Of a stretch of 64,000 nt of DNA, positions 19,269 to 49,572 are shown piece by piece; position 1 is the stretch's first letter, and the number at the start of each line of letters is the position of its first letter. The stretch is taken from assembly GCF_024172085.1 (NCBI RefSeq), contig NZ_JAMZDZ010000001.1:6820001-6884000 (forward strand), in the 5' to 3' direction. The notes below the pieces were generated by a model that saw only the letters and a program-made list of their open reading frames with translations, was not told the DNA's origin and made no database searches. The translations under genes and the position numbers were made by a program. The stretch is from Hamadaea flava (lineage in GTDB: Bacteria > Actinomycetota > Actinomycetes > Mycobacteriales > Micromonosporaceae).

Positions 19269-19291
19269 TTGTCGTACCTTCGCGGTAGACT
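19269..19291 (+). promoter_or_regulatory. PafBC (RecA-NDp)-like promoter of the imu operon
   Basis: TTGTCG (19269-19274) is separated by 11 nt from the -10 element TAGACT (19286-19291), as in the PafBC-dependent consensus TTGTCRGTG-N8-TAnnnT; the GTG triplet is TAC here. Predicted transcription start near 19298, just upstream of the LexA-type boxes. Confidence 0.5.
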
Positions 19292-19303
19292 TGCCCAAGA
19301 GTT

Positions 19304-19317
19304 CGAACGAGCGTTCT
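19304..19317 (+). promoter_or_regulatory. LexA (SOS) box 1 of the imu operon
   Basis: CGAACGAGCGTTCT differs from the actinobacterial/Bacillus SOS consensus CGAACRNRYGTTCG only in the last base. It lies right after the predicted transcription start, an ideal repressor site. Confidence 0.75.
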
Positions 19318-19324
19318 AGACTTT

Positions 19325-19337
19325 CGAACAGTGTTCG
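19325..19337 (+). promoter_or_regulatory. LexA-type box 2, one base shorter
   Basis: Both half-sites are perfect (CGAAC and GTTCG) but the spacer is 3 nt instead of 4. Centre-to-centre distance to box 1 is about 20 nt, roughly two helical turns, so cooperative binding is possible. Whether LexA tolerates the shorter spacer is not known. Confidence 0.45.
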
Positions 19338-19341
19338 AATA

Positions 19342-19641
19342 GAGTGTCCTGCAGGGGGAGCGGTTCGCGGCCGTGACCCCGCAGGCGGCGCGCTTGCGCA
19401 GCGCGCCACTCCAGAACCGAAGGACATTCGCGGTGTTCGCGGTTCTGACAGGCGGGATCGCCATCCGCCGCCCACCCGACCCCCGGGTGGCGGATGGCGT
19501 ACCCGATCGGTTGGCCGGTCGGGTGTGGTGTGGGGAAGCTCCACACCCCCCGGCCAGCCGGCGAGGCGGTGGCGGCGACGCCGACCACCGCCACGCCCCC
19601 GCCTTGCGTACGCGAGGTGTGGTGAAGCAGCCGCGAGCTGC
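19342..19641 (+). ncRNA. Candidate structured leader RNA of the SOS mutasome operon
   Basis: The about 400-nt 5' leader forms a row of strong hairpins. GAGTG (19342-19346)/CACTC (19407-19411) closes a junction holding CCTGC+GGGG/CCCC+GCAGG (19348-19385) and GCGCGC/GCGCGC (19388-19406). Then CAGAACCG/CGGTTCTG (19412-19447), a bulged stem CGCCATCCG/CGGATGGCG with inner CCACCCG/CGGGTGG (19459-19499) and outer CGGG/CCCG, GGTTGGCCGG/CCGGCCAGCC (19509-19559), GGCGGTGG/CCACCGCC with inner CGGCG/CGCCG (19565-19592), and GCAGC/GCTGC (19627-19641). No protein-like frame with its own ribosome site was found, and it does not match a family I recall. It could be a cis-regulatory leader, a processed small RNA, or an inserted structured element. 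Confidence 0.5.
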
Positions 19642-19703
19642 TGCGTCTTCCCCCGCAGTGGTGTGTTCGACCAGACCGTCGACCGCCGAATGGAGACGCA
19701 CAG

Positions 19704-20153
19704 ATGACCACGCCATCGCTGATCGCGGGTGCCGCCCGTACCACCGTCTCCGCTCATCTGCTGCCGCATCGCACCCCCGTCGAGCTGATCGCGCTCGCTC
19801 GCCGCGGCCTGCTCGAAGCCTCCGCCGCGCCGTCGGCCGCCCAGCGATACGCCACCGCTCACCTGGCCGCCCTGCGCGCGGCCGCCGCCGTTCTCGCCAT
19901 GCGCGCTCAGCCCGTCGCCGGTCGTCGCCGGTCCCGGGTGACCAGCGCCTGGCTCCTGCTCATCAAGGTCGCCCCGGAGCTGGCGGAGTGGGCCGAGTTC
20001 TTCGCCGTCGGCGCCGCCAAGCGGTCGGCCGCCGAGGCCGGCATCGCCAAGGTGACCACCCGGGAGGCCGACGACCTGGTGCGCGCCGCCGGCCAGTTCA
20101 TCGACGTCGTCCAGGGCTCGCTGGGCCTGTCCCATCCCGCCCCGGTCGCCTGA
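19704..20153 (+). CDS. SAV_6107-type HEPN domain protein
   Basis: A 149-residue all-helical protein of the SAV_6107-like HEPN family, found beside imuA'/imuB/dnaE2 in actinobacteria; its role in mutagenesis is not established. Recognised by TPVELIALARRGLLEASAAPSAAQRYATAHLAALRAAAAVLAMR, and the second conserved part SRVTSAWLLLIKVAPELAEWAEFF, with a C-terminal helical segment. A GGAG site precedes ATG 19704. As first gene of the operon it lies directly after the LexA boxes and the structured leader; imuA' starts 28 nt downstream. Confidence 0.85.
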   Translation: MTTPSLIAGAARTTVSAHLLPHRTPVELIALARRGLLEASAAPSAAQRYATAHLAALRAAAAVLAMRAQPVAGRRRSRVTSAWLLLIKVAPELAEWAEFFAVGAAKRSAAEAGIAKVTTREADDLVRAAGQFIDVVQGSLGLSHPAPVA

Positions 20154-20181: not shown

Positions 20182-21159
20182 ATGTCCAGCGCGCGGCGGG
20201 CGGCGGAACTCGCCGAGCTGGTGGCCTCGTCCGGGGCCGGGCCGATCACGGTCGCCTCGGCCGCACGGGGGCGACGGCTGACGCCCGGTTCCGGAGGCTC
20301 CGCCGGTTCGCCCGGCGGCGGGCCTAGAGCAGCGACCAGCGTGGCCGTCGCGGCCGAGTCCGTGACCACGGCCGGGGAGCTCGCCGGCGACGACGTCAGC
20401 CGCATGCTCCCGGTGACGGCCGCGTTGCAACCGCTGCTCCCCGGCGGTGGGCTGCGGCGGGGCAGCACGGTGACGATCACCCGGGCACTGCAGACCCCCG
20501 GCGGGGACGGCTCGCCGGGCGGGGCGCTGCGCGCGGCGGCGACCAGGGCAGCCGCCGCACGCAGCGCTCGAACCCCGAGGCTGACCCCGTTGCGGTCGGC
20601 CGAGCGGACGAGCTGGGGCGGGACCTCGGTGATGCTCGCGTTGCTCGCCGAGGCGTCGCGCGCGGGTTCCTGGTGCGCCATCGTGGGGCTGCCCGAACTC
20701 GGCGTGGCCGCCGCTGCCGAACTGGGCATCGTCCTCGAACGACTGGCCCTGGTGCCGCAGCCCGGCACCAAGTGGCCGGAAGTCGTCGCCACCCTGCTCG
20801 ACGGGTTCGACCTGGTGGTCGTGGCCGTCCGCGAGCAGGTGACCCCGCAGAACGCCGCGCGGCTGTCCGCCCGCGCCCGGCTGCGGGGCAGCGTCCTGCT
20901 CCCGATGGGGCCCTGGGACTCCGCCGACCTGGTCCTTGAGCCAGTCGGCGCGCAGTGGCAGGGGCTGGGTCCCGGGCACGGCCGGCTGCGGTGCCGGCAC
21001 CTGACGATCGCCGCCCGGGGCCGTGGAACGGCCGCCCGGCCCCGGGAGGTCGACGTCTGGCTGCCCACCGAGACGGGCGGGATCCGGCCCCACGTCACCG
21101 AGACCACAGTGGACCCCCGGTCTTCGCGCGGCCACCTGCGCGCGATCTCCGGTGGCTGA
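20182..21159 (+). CDS. imuA': ImuA'-like mutasome protein (RecA-like fold)
   Basis: Accessory factor of the damage-inducible mutagenesis complex with ImuB and DnaE2. The 325-residue product matches the actinobacterial hypothetical protein upstream of imuB: VTAALQPLLPGGGLRRGSTVTI, SVMLALLAEASRAGSWCAIVGLPELGVAAAAELGI, LERLALVPQPG, FDLVVVAV and LLPMGPWDSADLVLE. A low-complexity Gly/Ala/Arg insertion of about 45 residues separates the GSTVTI strand from WGGTSVMLALL, and no intact G-x4-G-K-[ST] Walker A is seen, so ATP binding is doubtful. It overlaps imuB by 8 nt. Control by the upstream LexA boxes is expected. Confidence 0.85.
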   Translation: MSSARRAAELAELVASSGAGPITVASAARGRRLTPGSGGSAGSPGGGPRAATSVAVAAESVTTAGELAGDDVSRMLPVTAALQPLLPGGGLRRGSTVTITRALQTPGGDGSPGGALRAAATRAAAARSARTPRLTPLRSAERTSWGGTSVMLALLAEASRAGSWCAIVGLPELGVAAAAELGIVLERLALVPQPGTKWPEVVATLLDGFDLVVVAVREQVTPQNAARLSARARLRGSVLLPMGPWDSADLVLEPVGAQWQGLGPGHGRLRCRHLTIAARGRGTAARPREVDVWLPTETGGIRPHVTETTVDPRSSRGHLRAISGG

Positions 21160-22690
21160 CGCCGGGCGTACGGCGGTGGTGTGGTGTCCCGACTGGCCGG
21201 TGATCGCCGCCGAGATCATCGACGGAGTGGACGCGGCGGGACCCGTCATCGTCCTGCAGAACAACCGGGTGCTGGCCTGCTCGGCGGCGGCCCGGGCGGA
21301 CGGCGTACGCCGGGGGATGCGCAAACGCGAAGCGCAGAGCACCTCGCCCCGGTCGGTGGCGGTCGACGACGACCCCGGACGTGACGCGCGCGCCTTCGAA
21401 CCGGTGATCGCCGCCGCGGAGGAAGTGGTCGCGGGGGTCGCCGCGCTCCGCCCCGGGACGTGCGCGTTCGCCGTACGCGGTCCGGCCCGCTACTTCGGCG
21501 GTGAACAGATCGCCGCCGAACAGGTCGTCGAGCACATCGCCCAGGTCTGCGGCGTCGAAGCCCAGATCGGCATGGCCGAAGGCGTGTTCGCCGCCGGGAT
21601 CGCCGCCCGGGCCGGCCGGCTCGTCCCCGCCGGGCAGACCGCTGCGTACCTGGCGGGACTGCCGATCGGCCTGCTCGACGGCTTCGGCGGCCGGGCCAAA
21701 CTCATCGACCTCCTGCGTCGCCTCGGCGTACACACCCTGGGGGCGTACGCGGCCCTGCCGCCGTCGGACGTGCTGGCCCGGTTCGGTCTCGACGCCGCCG
21801 TCGCGCACAAGCTCGCGGCCGGACTCGACACCCGCCCGCTGGCGATCCGCAGCGCCCCGCCCGACCTGGCGATCGGCGAGGAGTTCGAAGAACCGATCGA
21901 CCGGGTCGACGTGGCCGCCTTCGCCGCCCGATCACTCGCCGAACAGCTGCACGAACGGCTGGCCGCGTACGGGATGGCCTGCACGCGGCTGGCGATCGAC
22001 GCGGTGACCGTGCACGGGGAGGAACTGCACCGGACCTGGCGGCACGACGGCATCCTGACCGCCGCCGGGATCGCCGACCGGGTCCGGTGGCAGTTGGAAG
22101 GCTGGCTGCTGCGCCCCGAACGGCCGACCGGCGGAGTGCTGCGGCTGACGCTGACGCCGGACGGCGTGTTGCGGCAGGTGGGGCTGCAGCCGGGGCTGTG
22201 GGGCGAGACCGGGCCGGAGCGGGACCGGGCGAACCGGGCGGCCACCCGGGTGCAGGGCCTGCTCGGCCCGGACGCGGTGCTCACCCCGGCGCTCGGCGGC
22301 CGCCAGTACGGGCGGCTCGTCCCGTGGGGGCTGATTCCTTGGGGAGACGAGCGACCGCCGCCGGACGACCGGCCCTGGCCAGGGCGTACGCCCGCCCCGT
22401 CGGGTGCGCTGCTGGCGGTCCCGCAACGGCCGGTGCGGGTCCTCGACGAACACGGCGAACCGGTGACGATCGACGGGCGACTACGGATGAGCGCGCCGCC
22501 CGCCGCCCTGCTCCTCGACGGGGCAGCCGTCCCGATCGTGGGCTGGAACGGACCCTGGCCGATCGACGACCACTGGTGGGACGGCCGGGTCGCCGAACGG
22601 TCGGCCCGGCTCCAGGTCCTGCTCGACGACCGCGCGGTGGTCGTCACGCTGCGCGGCGGCGAGTGGTACGCCGCAGTCGTCTTCGACTGA
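21152..22690 (+). CDS. imuB: ImuB, Y-family polymerase-like mutasome scaffold
   Basis: A 512-residue Y-family homologue that in mycobacteria acts as a hub joining ImuA', DnaE2 and the beta clamp rather than as a polymerase. It starts GRTAVVWCPDWPVIAAEI, where active Y-family enzymes have an acidic DxDxFFA segment, so the catalytic aspartate is missing. Other family parts are intact: GVRRGMRKREAQ, CGVEAQIGMAEGVFAAGIAARAG, LRRLGVHTLGAYAALPPSDVLARFG (helix-hairpin-helix), and the little-finger region. A clear QLPLW-type clamp motif was not located; PWGLIPWGDE follows the expected region. Start GTG 21152 is within the imuA' end. Confidence 0.92.
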   Translation: MADAGRTAVVWCPDWPVIAAEIIDGVDAAGPVIVLQNNRVLACSAAARADGVRRGMRKREAQSTSPRSVAVDDDPGRDARAFEPVIAAAEEVVAGVAALRPGTCAFAVRGPARYFGGEQIAAEQVVEHIAQVCGVEAQIGMAEGVFAAGIAARAGRLVPAGQTAAYLAGLPIGLLDGFGGRAKLIDLLRRLGVHTLGAYAALPPSDVLARFGLDAAVAHKLAAGLDTRPLAIRSAPPDLAIGEEFEEPIDRVDVAAFAARSLAEQLHERLAAYGMACTRLAIDAVTVHGEELHRTWRHDGILTAAGIADRVRWQLEGWLLRPERPTGGVLRLTLTPDGVLRQVGLQPGLWGETGPERDRANRAATRVQGLLGPDAVLTPALGGRQYGRLVPWGLIPWGDERPPPDDRPWPGRTPAPSGALLAVPQRPVRVLDEHGEPVTIDGRLRMSAPPAALLLDGAAVPIVGWNGPWPIDDHWWDGRVAERSARLQVLLDDRAVVVTLRGGEWYAAVVFD

Positions 22691-23102: not shown

Positions 23103-26100
23103 GTGAGTCGGTTCAATGGTGGTGAGGCGCTGCCGTGGAAGGAGCTGGAGCGGCGGCTGTCCGGGCCCGAGGCGGGCCGGGTGGTGGATCCGCTGGCCGA
23201 GGACGAGATCGGTCCGCAGAGCCGCAAGCGGGAGCGCCCGCAGGCGCCGGCGCTGGTCCGGCGGCAGGCCGAGGTCGCGTACGCCGAACTGCACTGCCAC
23301 ACGAATTTCAGTTTCCTCGACGGGGCGAGTCATCCGGAGGAACTGGTCCGGGAGGCTGTCCGCCTGGGGTTGACCGGGCTGGCGGTGACCGATCACGACG
23401 GGATGCCGGGCGTGGTGCGGTTCTCGGAGGAGGCCCGGGACTGGGGCCTGCCCACGATCTTCGGCTCCGAGTTGAGCCTGGATCTGCCGGGCGCCCAGGC
23501 GGGGGAGCCTGATCCGGCCGGCCGTCATCTGCTGTTGCTGGCCCGGGGCCAGCACGGGTACGCGAGGCTGTCCGCCGCGATCGCGGAGGCGCAGCTGGCC
23601 GGGGGTGAGAAGGGGCGCCCGAAGTACGACGTCGAGCAGATCGCCGCCGCCGTCAAGGATCACGCGGTGGTGCTGACCGGCTGCCGGAAGGGCCACGTTC
23701 CCCAGGCGCTCGCCCGGCAGGGGGAAAGCGCCGCGGAACGGGAGCTGGATCGGCTGGTCGACCTGTTCGGGCGGGAGAACGTCGTCGTCGAGCTGATCGA
23801 CCACGGCGACCCGTTCGACGTCGACCGCAACGAGGCGCTCTTCGCGTTGGCGGAGAGCCGGAGGCTGACCGCGGTCGCCACCAACAACGTGCACTTTCAC
23901 GCGCCGGGGCGACGGCGGCTGGCGACGACGCTGGCGGCGGTCCGGGCGCGGCGGTCGCTCGACGAGATCGATCCGTGGCTGCCCGCCGCGGGTACGGCGT
24001 ACCTGCGGTCGGGGGAGGAGATGGCGGCGCGGTTCGCGTACTTCCCGGGGGTGGTCGCCAACGCCGCCCGGCTGGGCGAGGAACTCGCCTTCGACCTGCA
24101 CCTGGTCGCGCCGAACCTGCCGCCCTATCCGGTCCCGCCGGGCTATGACGAGAACTCCTACCTGCGCAAGCTCGTCTACGAGGGGGCCGAGGCCCGCTAC
24201 GGGCCGAACCATCCGGCGGCGTACGCCCAGATCGAGCACGAGCTGGCGCTGATCGCCAAGCTCAACTATCCGGGGTATTTCCTGATCGTCTACGACATAG
24301 TGAAGTTCTGCAAAGAGAACCGGATCTACTGCCAGGGCCGGGGCTCGGCGGCCAACAGCGCGGTCTGCTACGCCCTCTGGATCACCAATGTGGACTCCGT
24401 GGCGCATCGTCTGCTGTTCGAGCGGTTCCTCGCCGAGGAACGGGACGGCCCGCCGGACATCGACGTCGACATCGAGTCCGACCAGCGGGAGAAGGTCATC
24501 CAGTACGTCTACGAGAAATACGGGCGGCGGCACGCGGCCCAGGTCGCCAACGTCATCTCGTACCGGCCGCGGTCGGCGGTCCGCGACATGGCCCGCGCCT
24601 TCGGCTTCTCCCCGGGCCAGCAGGACGCCTGGTCCAAGCAGCTGGACCGGTGGTCGGGGATCGACGCCCAGGACGGCCGCAACGAGGGCATCCCCGACCA
24701 CGTGGTGGAGTTCGCCAACCAGGTGATGACCTTTCCCCGGCACCTGGGCATCCACTCCGGCGGCATGGTGATCTGCGACCGTCCGGTGATCGAGGTGTGC
24801 CCGGTGGAGTGGGCGCGGATGCCCGGCCGGACCGTGCTCCAGTGGGACAAGGACGACTGCGCCGCCATCGGCCTGGTCAAGTTCGACCTGCTGGGGCTCG
24901 GCATGCTCTCGGCGCTGCGGTACGCCTTCGAGTTCCTCGGTGAGGAGATGGATCTCGCGAACATGCCGATGGACGACCCGGAGGTCTACGACATGCTGTG
25001 CCGGGCCGACTCGGTCGGCGTGTTCCAGGTGGAGAGCCGGGCGCAGATGTCCACCTTGCCCCGGCTGAAACCCCGCGAGTTCTACGACCTGGTGGTGGAG
25101 GTCGCGCTGATCCGCCCCGGCCCGATCCAGGGCGGTTCGGTGCATCCCTACATCCGCCGCAAGAACAAGCTGGAGGAGCCGACCTACCCGCATTCGCTGA
25201 TGCGCAACGCGTTGGAGAAGACCCTGGGCGTACCGCTGTTCCAGGAGCAGATGATGCAGCTGGCCATCGACGTCGCGGGGTTCACCCCGAACGAGTCCGA
25301 CCAGCTGCGCCGGGCGATGGGCGCCAAGCGGTCGGTCGAGAAGATGGCCCGGTTGCGCGATCGGCTCTACGCCGGGATGGCGGCCAACGGGATCACCGGC
25401 CCGGTCGCCGACGACGTCTACGCCAAGCTGGAGGCGTTCGCCTCCTACGGCTTCCCGGAGAGCCACGCGATGAGCTTCGCGTACCTCGTCTACGCCAGCT
25501 CCTGGCTCAAGCGGTACCACCCGGCCGCGTTCCTCGCCGCGCTGCTCAACGCGCAGCCGATGGGGTTCTACTCGCCGCAGTCGCTGACCGACGACGCCCG
25601 GCGCCACGGAGTCGAGGTACGCCGCCCGGACATCAACCGGAGCCACGCGAAGGCCACTTTGGAGAGTGAGGGGGCTGCCCGCTGGGGGTCGGTCGCCGGT
25701 GAGCCGCCGAGCCGCTGGGGACTGGGCGGCCCCGCTGTCCGGCTCGGGCTCGGCGCTGTGCGTAACCTTGGGGAGGAAGTGGCCGAGCGCATCGTGACGG
25801 AACGGGACCGCGGCGGCCCTTATCGCGATCTGGCGGACCTGGCGCGGCGTGCGGAACTGACCACCGCGCACCTGGAAGCCCTGGCCACCGCGGACGCCTT
25901 CGCCCCACTGGGCCTGGACCGGCGGGCCGCGCTGTGGGCCGCCGGGGCCGCCGCGCAGGACCGGCCGGACCGCCTGCCCGGGACCATCGCGGGCCTGGAC
26001 GCGCCGGCGTTGCCCGGGATGGACGATGTGGACAAGCTGGTCGCGGACGTGTGGGCGACCGGGATGAGCCCGGACGACCACCCGATCCGGCTGGTCCGCG

Positions 26101-26432
26101 CGATGCTGGACGGGCGGGGCGCCATCCCGATCGCGCAGCTGGGCCGGGCGCCCGACGGCACCCGCGTGCTGGTCGGCGGGCTTGTCACGCACCGCCAGCG
26201 GCCCGGCACCGCCGGCGGCGTGACCTTCCTCAGCCTGGAGGACGAGACCGGCATGCTCAACGTGGTCTGCTCGCCGGGTCTGTGGGTGCGGCATCGCCGG
26301 GTCGCCCGCACCAGTGGCGCCCTGCTGATCCGGGGACGGCTGGAGGTCGCGAGCGGTGTCGTCAATCTGTCCGCGGAACGGCTGGAGCATCTCCCGATCG
26401 CGACAAGACCGTCCTCACGCGACTTCCGGTAG
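23103..26432 (+). CDS. dnaE2: Error-prone DNA polymerase DnaE2
   Basis: C-family translesion polymerase responsible for damage-induced mutagenesis together with ImuA' and ImuB. The 1109-residue product has an N-terminal PHP domain (ELHCHTNFSFLDGASHPEEL, TDHDGMPG), the polymerase palm with catalytic aspartates in PPDIDVDIESDQREK (D452, D454, D456), GRGSAANSAVCYAL, the helix-hairpin-helix region, and a C-terminal OB fold (GGLVTHRQRPGTAGGVTFLSLEDETG). Length is typical for DnaE2. The first 55 residues are a variable N-terminal arm. GTG 23103 is preferred given the -10 element 7 nt upstream. Located 130 nt beyond a small membrane protein gene after imuB, across repeat D. Confidence 0.96.
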   Translation: MSRFNGGEALPWKELERRLSGPEAGRVVDPLAEDEIGPQSRKRERPQAPALVRRQAEVAYAELHCHTNFSFLDGASHPEELVREAVRLGLTGLAVTDHDGMPGVVRFSEEARDWGLPTIFGSELSLDLPGAQAGEPDPAGRHLLLLARGQHGYARLSAAIAEAQLAGGEKGRPKYDVEQIAAAVKDHAVVLTGCRKGHVPQALARQGESAAERELDRLVDLFGRENVVVELIDHGDPFDVDRNEALFALAESRRLTAVATNNVHFHAPGRRRLATTLAAVRARRSLDEIDPWLPAAGTAYLRSGEEMAARFAYFPGVVANAARLGEELAFDLHLVAPNLPPYPVPPGYDENSYLRKLVYEGAEARYGPNHPAAYAQIEHELALIAKLNYPGYFLIVYDIVKFCKENRIYCQGRGSAANSAVCYALWITNVDSVAHRLLFERFLAEERDGPPDIDVDIESDQREKVIQYVYEKYGRRHAAQVANVISYRPRSAVRDMARAFGFSPGQQDAWSKQLDRWSGIDAQDGRNEGIPDHVVEFANQVMTFPRHLGIHSGGMVICDRPVIEVCPVEWARMPGRTVLQWDKDDCAAIGLVKFDLLGLGMLSALRYAFEFLGEEMDLANMPMDDPEVYDMLCRADSVGVFQVESRAQMSTLPRLKPREFYDLVVEVALIRPGPIQGGSVHPYIRRKNKLEEPTYPHSLMRNALEKTLGVPLFQEQMMQLAIDVAGFTPNESDQLRRAMGAKRSVEKMARLRDRLYAGMAANGITGPVADDVYAKLEAFASYGFPESHAMSFAYLVYASSWLKRYHPAAFLAALLNAQPMGFYSPQSLTDDARRHGVEVRRPDINRSHAKATLESEGAARWGSVAGEPPSRWGLGGPAVRLGLGAVRNLGEEVAERIVTERDRGGPYRDLADLARRAELTTAHLEALATADAFAPLGLDRRAALWAAGAAAQDRPDRLPGTIAGLDAPALPGMDDVDKLVADVWATGMSPDDHPIRLVRAMLDGRGAIPIAQLGRAPDGTRVLVGGLVTHRQRPGTAGGVTFLSLEDETGMLNVVCSPGLWVRHRRVARTSGALLIRGRLEVASGVVNLSAERLEHLPIATRPSSRDFR

Positions 26433-48109: not shown

Positions 48110-48280
48110 CAGCATCGGGCAGGGGTGGGGGACCCACTTTCGCCTCGCGACTCACGCGGCCGGCCTCGCTTCCCCAGGAGCCGGTCTCGCCGCGCGCGGG
48201 GCTCGGGGTGTAGCCGCGCTCAGCGGCCGGGCAACCCTTCCGCGCCCGAACCCGACAGCTCACCTCACAGGCGTGCTGAA
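48110..48280 (+). promoter_or_regulatory. c-di-AMP riboswitch (ydaO-yuaA type) 1
   Basis: Conserved blocks of this class are present in order: GGGGGACCCACTTTCGCC, CGGGGTGTAGCC, the GCCGGGCAACC region, and the diagnostic end CCGACAGCTCACCTCACAGG with CGT, 11-30 nt before the ATG of a cell-wall hydrolase. In actinobacteria this riboswitch controls NlpC/P60 and Rpf genes, usually turning them off when c-di-AMP is high. No T-rich terminator was seen between the aptamer and ATG, so control may act on translation. Confidence 0.88.
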
Positions 48281-48289
48281 GGGACCCCT

Positions 48290-49383: not shown

Positions 49384-49565
49384 GTGGATGGGCGGGAGTG
49401 GGGGAACCACCTTCGCCGGATCTGGTCGCGGACCCGGCTCGGGGTGAAGCCACCGGCGTCCGCTCAGGACACCCGCCCCCGGTGGACCTCCGTCCTGAAT
49501 GGATGCCGTGGCCGGGCCGCCTTCCCGCCCGAACCCGACAGCTCACTTCGCAGGCGTGCCGGAAG
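49384..49565 (+). promoter_or_regulatory. c-di-AMP riboswitch (ydaO-yuaA type) 2
   Basis: Same ordered blocks as riboswitch 1: GTGGGGGAACCACCTTCGCC, CGGGGTGAAGCCACCGG, GCCCGAACCCGACAGCTCAC and CTTCGCAGGCGT (end at 49557), 16 nt before the ATG. The peripheral helices differ, so the copies are not a recent duplication. Confidence 0.88.
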
Positions 49566-49572
49566 GACGACG

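Follow-up and report, generated by a model that had tools for sequence, protein, structure and literature searches.

A conserved leader RNA built of fixed-loop hairpins precedes the HEPN-imuA'-imuB-dnaE2 mutasome operon in Hamadaea flava and related actinobacteria

The mutasome operon, its promoter elements and its leader

In the 64,000-nt stretch of Hamadaea flava DNA analysed here (the window), the + strand carries an operon whose first gene encodes a SAV_6107-like HEPN protein (19704-20153; PF18726, E 6e-34), followed by imuA' (20182-21159; NF058630), an imuB-like Y-family gene (21023-22690; PF00817, the open reading frame as listed, with a provisional start) and the error-prone polymerase gene dnaE2 (23103-26432; NF004225, 1508 bits). 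Mutasome operons are the drivers of mutation after damage, and the usual account places their control at transcription. Like the mycobacterial ImuA'-ImuB-DnaE2 mutasome operon, the one studied here joins imuA', imuB and dnaE2 to a LexA-type box and a damage-type promoter, but an RNA and the HEPN gene stand ahead of them; a word search of one account of the mycobacterial mutasome found no mention of a leader, an untranslated region or a riboswitch (PMC10421592). SAV_6107-like HEPN proteins are entered in a table of PMC3710099 as having no HEPN catalytic motif. At loci L145-L151, L154, L160, L181 and L182, from several other families, the first frame opens some hundred bases upstream of the HEPN domain, so that the first gene there seems, by eye, to encode an additional N-terminal domain containing a WRGR-like motif.

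Upstream of the operon lie two LexA-type boxes (19303-19318 and 19323-19339, the second with a spacer of 3 nt instead of 4 nt) and, ahead of them on the + strand, a predicted P1/PafBC-type promoter (19269-19291; TTGTCG, 11 nt, TAGACT), the two sequence features of an operon inducible by damage through SOS and PafBC. LexA-type boxes precede most relatives' leaders as well, and among leaders with a recognisable box the pattern TTGTCR-N10..12-TANNNT falls no more than 50 nt ahead of the SOS box in 65/124 leaders from the Micromonosporaceae (hereafter the family) and in 10/78 others. All 75 matches have a spacing of exactly 11 nt, as in the published P1 consensus (tTGTCRgtg-8 nt-TannnT, PMC5656591), against a match rate of 0.1% in shuffled sequence. 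Given the SOS box and the P1-type promoter match, the leader is probably made under the control of LexA and PafBC.

Between these damage-type promoter elements and the operon, positions 19348-19658 form a structured RNA leader. Positions 19340-19703 (364 nt) have a fold energy of -228.2 kcal/mol, where 100 dinucleotide shuffles give -177.5 +/- 6.5 (z -7.8; 0/100 as low). This bears out a sequence-only reading of this DNA that had judged its series of strong hairpins too regular for chance. The same reading had counted at least seven hairpins, rightly, since eight are located by sequence and fold: P1, P2, P3, B, C, two in an insert, and D.

All of these lie on the + strand. P1 (module A, 19348-19385), assigned from sequence, presents the loop UUCGCGG at 19364-19370, and its loop TTCGCGGC is invariant across 34 aligned Micromonosporaceae leaders. 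It is followed by P2 (19387-19407), assigned from the fold and from stem covariation in relatives, and by P3 (19412-19447), a second module A with its UUCGCGG at 19427-19433, for which sequence, fold and stem covariation in relatives agree. P4 (module B, 19454-19504) has the loop ACCCGACCCCC at 19474-19484 and P5 (module C, 19508-19560) the octaloop UGGGGAAG at 19531-19538, both from fold and covariation, while P6 (module D, 19641-19658), from sequence and covariation, carries at 19646-19653 the octaloop UCUUCCCC that complements loop C. The module loops are near-invariant: UUCGCGG or CUCGCGG in A, CUCGACCC in B, [U/A]GGGGAAG in C and CUUCCYC in D, the last with the fuller consensus [U/C]CUUCC[C/U]C. 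Some Micromonosporaceae C hairpins contain an asymmetric internal loop, and one leader outside the family (L235, in f39) has a tandem pair of B hairpins. The insert between C and D (19561-19641) adds two hairpins, one within 19561-19607 and one at 19627-19641; it is common to the window and its nearest congener, L004, and is lineage-specific rather than general. A 42-nt segment that is 83% identical to it (G000:C1:3920974-3921015, L002) is its single other occurrence in the genome.

The support for P1 and D as separate hairpins comes from relatives, because in the nested minimum-energy fold of the window sequence alone their strands pair together over a long range and the hairpins of their own are absent. 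Relatives likewise keep P1 and P2 as distinct, adjoining hairpins, and we therefore reject the three-way junction that had been proposed at 19342-19411. Kissing of the A loop with the P2 loop (UUCGCGG with CCGCGAA, for example in L012) suits some genera; we leave it as a lead because the CGCG cores are self-complementary and the window's own P2 loop, UUGCGCA, is unfit for it.

That the leader holds no supported coding frame is also confirmed. At E 0.1, Pfam yields no match for its four overlapping open reading frames, and the spacing between module loops is not kept to multiples of three: modulo 3, values of 0, 1 and 2 occur 30, 10 and 42 times for B-C (82 leaders of relatives) and 27, 43 and 29 times for C-D (99 leaders of relatives). 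We accordingly reject a protein-coding leader. The feature expected of an intrinsic-terminator attenuator is absent too, as the UGGUGUGUUCG that follows D in the window, read by eye, has no U run.

Covariation and conservation

Covariation in homologous leaders, which the sequence-only reading had named as the way to check for a functional RNA, is strong in three alignments and extends to P2 and P3; neither of the two outcomes it had set against such an RNA, an absence of covariation or a conserved protein frame, was found. Our tests were count-based (pairs formed, double changes, shuffles and slid structures) rather than made with R-scape, and we put weight on the slid controls and on independent families because shared ancestry inflates shuffle tests. 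The family alignment of B, C and D (A1) comprises 28 leaders, namely 31 chosen for diversity among 124 (complete D, length at most 165), minus L015, L016, L024 and L127, plus L008. Its 42 named pairs are 94.5% formed and 17/42 are double-changed; 0/500 shuffles do as well, and slid structures form at most 48.5%.

The same picture holds outside the family. Among 25 distinct C hairpins with an 8-nt loop from other families (A3; L198 excluded by hand), 13/14 pairs are double-changed and 89.7% are formed, with a covariation score of 0.645 against 0.206, while the GGGGAAG loop and its closing G-C pair are invariant. Across 32 B hairpins taken from other families (A5, drawn from 54 candidates, L253 excluded), TCGACCC is invariant and 10/10 pairs are double-changed, a count that shuffles match in 214/500 cases; 75% of pairs are formed against 51.6% in shuffles, a figure lowered because the B loop differs in length by one or two bases, and covariation scores 0.593, with 0.227 in shuffles. 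RNAalifold, applied to 34 of 46 distinct P1-P3 regions of the family (A6), predicts P2 and P3 with 10/12 pairs double-changed and does not recover the P1 stem, whose arms are poorly aligned in A6. A cross-family alignment of B, C and D (A2) and a first alignment of B (A4) misplaced the loops and are excluded from the counts.

These stems also bear on whether selection acts on DNA rather than on RNA. Extruded hairpins or a DNA-binding site would fit with the LexA palindromes that adjoin the leader and with the opposite strand of 19340-19703, which beats its shuffles as well (z -4.8). The + strand is clearly the more stable, however, and stems vary through G-U, which is unpaired in DNA (G-U in 10/28 sequences at columns 86/101 of A1), so that we give a DNA-level element scarcely any credence.

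At shorter range, 19348-19560 is identical between the window and L004 (213/213 nt), and the whole leader is identical at 400/404 positions with 3 gap columns, whereas coding identity is 90.0% for the HEPN gene (79.9% at third positions) and 89.0% for imuA', and the intergenic stretch ahead of the leader is 86.0% identical. High conservation also extends to a fragment of the ybaK-like gene upstream, at 97.0% identity. Hairpins of great stability close to the presumed 5' end could in principle do no more than stabilise the mRNA, or be the source of a small RNA excised from the leader; but mere stability needs neither invariant loops nor an identity exceeding that of coding sequence, and we regard either role as very improbable. 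Taken as a whole, the leader is almost certainly a conserved functional RNA.

Distribution and linkage to neighbouring genes

The HEPN gene is present in 194/200 Micromonosporaceae genomes. Our set of 130 family leaders combines the 30 matches fetched, one of them the window's, with 100 hand-picked among the listed places; the divergent genus g12 is excluded. In a motif test, 126/130 have GACCCC and GGGGAAG 20-80 nt apart, although in L109, L118 and L121 the GGGGAAG so found is the Shine-Dalgarno; folding-based scoring gives a C hairpin in 117/130 and B, C and D together in 102/130, and L039 and L113 have B with C and D absent. Automatic module calls are noisy, and D is called in the absence of C at 8 loci of the family and 8 elsewhere, some of these calls being due to chance pyrimidine loops.

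Across the class, PF18726 is found in 197/296 genomes. We scored 96 loci of other families (the 30 best, 60 chosen PF18726 loci and seven earlier loci, minus the family member L164), and B, C and D occur together in 18 of them, spread over 10 families (f5, f10, f13, f21, f22, f25, f37, f43, f52 and f54); C is present in 30, B in 44 and no module in 38. Modules are gained and lost separately, families keeping B alone, A and C, or C and D: B stands without C in f23, f27, f39, f41, f46, f49 and f55, C occurs mostly with module A in f31, and the HEPN operons of f32, f33 and f34 have C in 0/24 loci and one doubtful B. In f8 there is no R1 or R2 match among the matches listed for these two models, described below, and its g51 members are also without a HEPN match.

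Searches blind to gene context mostly lead back to the same operon. The model R1 matches in 18/101 genomes of the order, 7 of them outside the family; downstream of 6 of these 7 lies a clear HEPN gene, and the remaining one (L151) has a weak partial HEPN match at a contig end. A DNA pattern run over a named genome collection returned 42 stretches: 28 lie upstream of a HEPN gene on the same strand (including L262, where the HEPN profile alignment starts before the motif), 5 have the same structure in fetched DNA that ends 13-595 nt downstream, and 9 are unrelated. Among the named carriers are eight Catellatospora records, Motilibacter deserti, Fodinicola feengrottensis, a Micromonospora and many Frankiales MAGs; a C-like hairpin at an unrelated location in Nonomuraea (L271) we take as chance. 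The model R2, built on C alone, matches in 26/101 order genomes, one of which (G003) holds a known leader; the 25 newly fetched loci comprise 22 with HEPN downstream and 3 at contig ends. R2 also matched 26 of 98 class genomes: 15 matches sit beside HEPN places, 4 between nrdR and nrdJ in f41, and 7 are weak. These weak matches (five genomes of f19, two of f44; E 0.017-0.045) look like other intergenic hairpins, with AGGGGAAG loops (L304, L306-L308 and L311; L310 and L312), and were set aside. R2 misses family-type C hairpins, as the window's own C gets just E 0.28, with the next match in that genome at E 1.8. For the B model, 14/15 of the best fetched loci are upstream of HEPN; most weaker matches are not and are taken as chance.

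The leader thus keeps the same strand and the same position between promoter and gene across taxa. A DNA search of its own genome returned the leader itself and the one 42-nt partial match, and R1 gave one significant match there. An inserted element, as had been considered, finds no support in a full leader that is single-copy in its genome and kept with the operon across families, and on the leader DNA, R1 and R2 searches we reject a mobile or repeated palindromic element. We hold it very probable that the leader RNA is a cis-regulator of the mutasome operon.

Apart from the mutasome operon, the context-free searches point to a single clear location, the gap between nrdR and nrdJ in the family f41; 13/41 genomes of f41 have a model match. 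The 14 loci examined (these 13 and one from the class scan) divide into 12 between nrdR and nrdJ and 2 upstream of HEPN, the identity of NrdR and NrdJ being a by-eye reading of the L300 proteins. All 12 nrdR-nrdJ loci have the C octaloop hairpin (L296, L298, L300, L303, L313-L315 and L317-L321) on stems that differ (for example in L296, L315 and L321). Most of these nrdJ leaders have no clear D: a pyrimidine hairpin or tract follows C in L298 and L313, and none does in L300 and L317. In the four nrdJ loci scanned, no Rfam family covers the hairpins. D is not always needed elsewhere either, since C stands without a scored D in 11/117 family and 9/30 other loci having C.

Since C is retained where D is missing and also stands ahead of nrdJ, the main rival to a switch within the leader is a loop-binding factor: the fixed loops A, B and C would be the docking site of an RNA-binding protein, which the operon itself might encode and which would govern how mRNAs for DNA metabolism are translated or degraded, with C-D kissing secondary. 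Stems that change completely around fixed loops, the separate gain and loss of modules and the C octaloop alone in nrdR-nrdJ gaps (12/14 loci) all speak for it. There is no candidate protein, however, and the HEPN protein is not an obligatory binder, as nrdJ leaders with C have no nearby HEPN and the f32, f33 and f34 HEPN operons do without C; on balance we think this rival rather unlikely. We view with still more doubt the wider idea of an unrecognised actinobacterial RNA-level regulon, in which one trans factor would read the [U/A]GGGGAAG octaloop in mutasome and class II ribonucleotide reductase (nrdJ) leaders and so couple mutagenic repair to dNTP supply after damage, D being an exchangeable expression platform.

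A putative translation switch and its meaning

The translation switch that we prefer builds on two sets of possible pairings. Loops C and D could form seven pairs, and a downstream hairpin loop complementary to GGGGAAG occurs in 88/139 distinct leaders with C when G-U is allowed (0.7 in shuffles) and in 17 of 139 with Watson-Crick pairs alone (13 of the 29 outside the family; 0.3 in shuffles). In a permutation control with G-U allowed, GGGGAAG ranks first of 21 (88), with the shifted heptamers GGGAAGG (84) and GGGGGAA (77) nearly equal and several strings at 50-71, because a pyrimidine loop suits many purine strings; the C-D pairing is without covariation because loop C hardly varies. The Shine-Dalgarno region (19692-19700, + strand; GGAGACGCA) could in turn form nine pairs, G-U allowed, with UGCGUCUUC of D (19642-19650). 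Folding of L003 predicts this pairing with P 0.99, and in 86/118 leaders the predicted probability that the Shine-Dalgarno is paired to D exceeds 0.5. Its predicted unpaired value is 0.17, compared with 0.32 when the upstream sequence is shuffled and 0.45 when loop D is blocked. In the related L005, UGCGCUUC faces GAAGCGCA, a change matching the window's pair. D-SD pairing is partly expected because any Shine-Dalgarno is purine-rich; cognate duplexes are better than permuted ones over all leaders (0/2000) and moderately so over 21 cluster representatives (111/5000), and the window's own pair has no advantage (-16.3 vs -16.2). With this signal weak after clustering and none in the window's pair, we offer the predicted exchange among C, D and the Shine-Dalgarno as a tentative model, at modest confidence.

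The best explanation of the whole, at a probability of roughly 0.55, is a conserved cis-acting 5' leader RNA working as a translation switch. DNA damage would start transcription through the LexA boxes and the PafBC-type promoter, from a start placed near 19298, and the RNA would fold into its fixed-loop hairpins with D as the expression platform. In the off state, loop and stem of D would pair with the Shine-Dalgarno of the HEPN gene; in the on state, D would form its own hairpin and loop D would kiss the GGGGAAG of loop C, freeing the start site. The balance between the two states may be set by a ligand or trans factor that contacts loops A, B and possibly C. The analysis establishes the structure, its covariation, the constancy of the loops, the tie to the operon and the complementarity of D to both loop C and the Shine-Dalgarno; the transcript, the pairing exchange, the trigger and the effect on expression are what we infer in this scheme, and the post-transcriptional switch suggested by the sequence-only reading is the best-fitting interpretation, though not a proven one.

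Were the trigger a metabolite or ion reporting DNA stress or nucleotide pools, the leader would be a riboswitch. A conserved leader RNA with a plausible predicted expression platform, and a second home before a ribonucleotide reductase gene, are in keeping with this, but the leader shows no clear multi-helix core that is conserved, its modules being retained in different combinations, and no Rfam riboswitch matches it; we consider a riboswitch improbable. The expectation that no Rfam family would fit the leader holds for Rfam 15, with no match at E 1. At gathering scores the whole window yields just two c-di-AMP riboswitches (RF00379) elsewhere, at 48178-48287 and 49404-49570, 1.2 kb apart, each ahead of a gene that by eye resembles an NlpC/P60-type secreted hydrolase. 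At E 1, six Micromonosporaceae loci give no match and five loci of other families give three weak unrelated ones, away from the RNA. A type III antitoxin RNA is rejected, as the repeat search gives no tandem repeat family and the downstream gene is a SAV_6107-like HEPN gene, not a ToxN-type RNase.

Anti-SD/anti-anti-SD leader RNAs switch a Shine-Dalgarno by alternative pairing, and the leader described here resembles them in that the pyrimidine strand of D is predicted to pair with either the Shine-Dalgarno or an upstream purine loop, but differs in its modular fixed-loop hairpins and predicted loop-loop kissing. ColE1 RNAI/RNAII are kissing-loop RNAs whose loops likewise share about seven complementary bases, whereas here the contact is predicted within one leader, between neighbouring hairpins. 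Leader RNAs are thus known as a kind; the present family is absent from Rfam 15, and we found no description of it, of its modular fixed-loop build or of such an RNA at a mutagenesis operon in a literature search to which most subscription papers were external, so that an earlier description is possible.

The build is unusual, with exchangeable hairpins presenting fixed loops, and the second home, ahead of nrdJ, offers a practical way in to the search for whatever binds the RNA. The leader RNA probably helps set the amount of error-prone repair machinery made. A loop-conserved leader RNA found across many families may thus represent a second layer of control on mutasome operons, and the gating of error-prone repair after the damage signal becomes testable.
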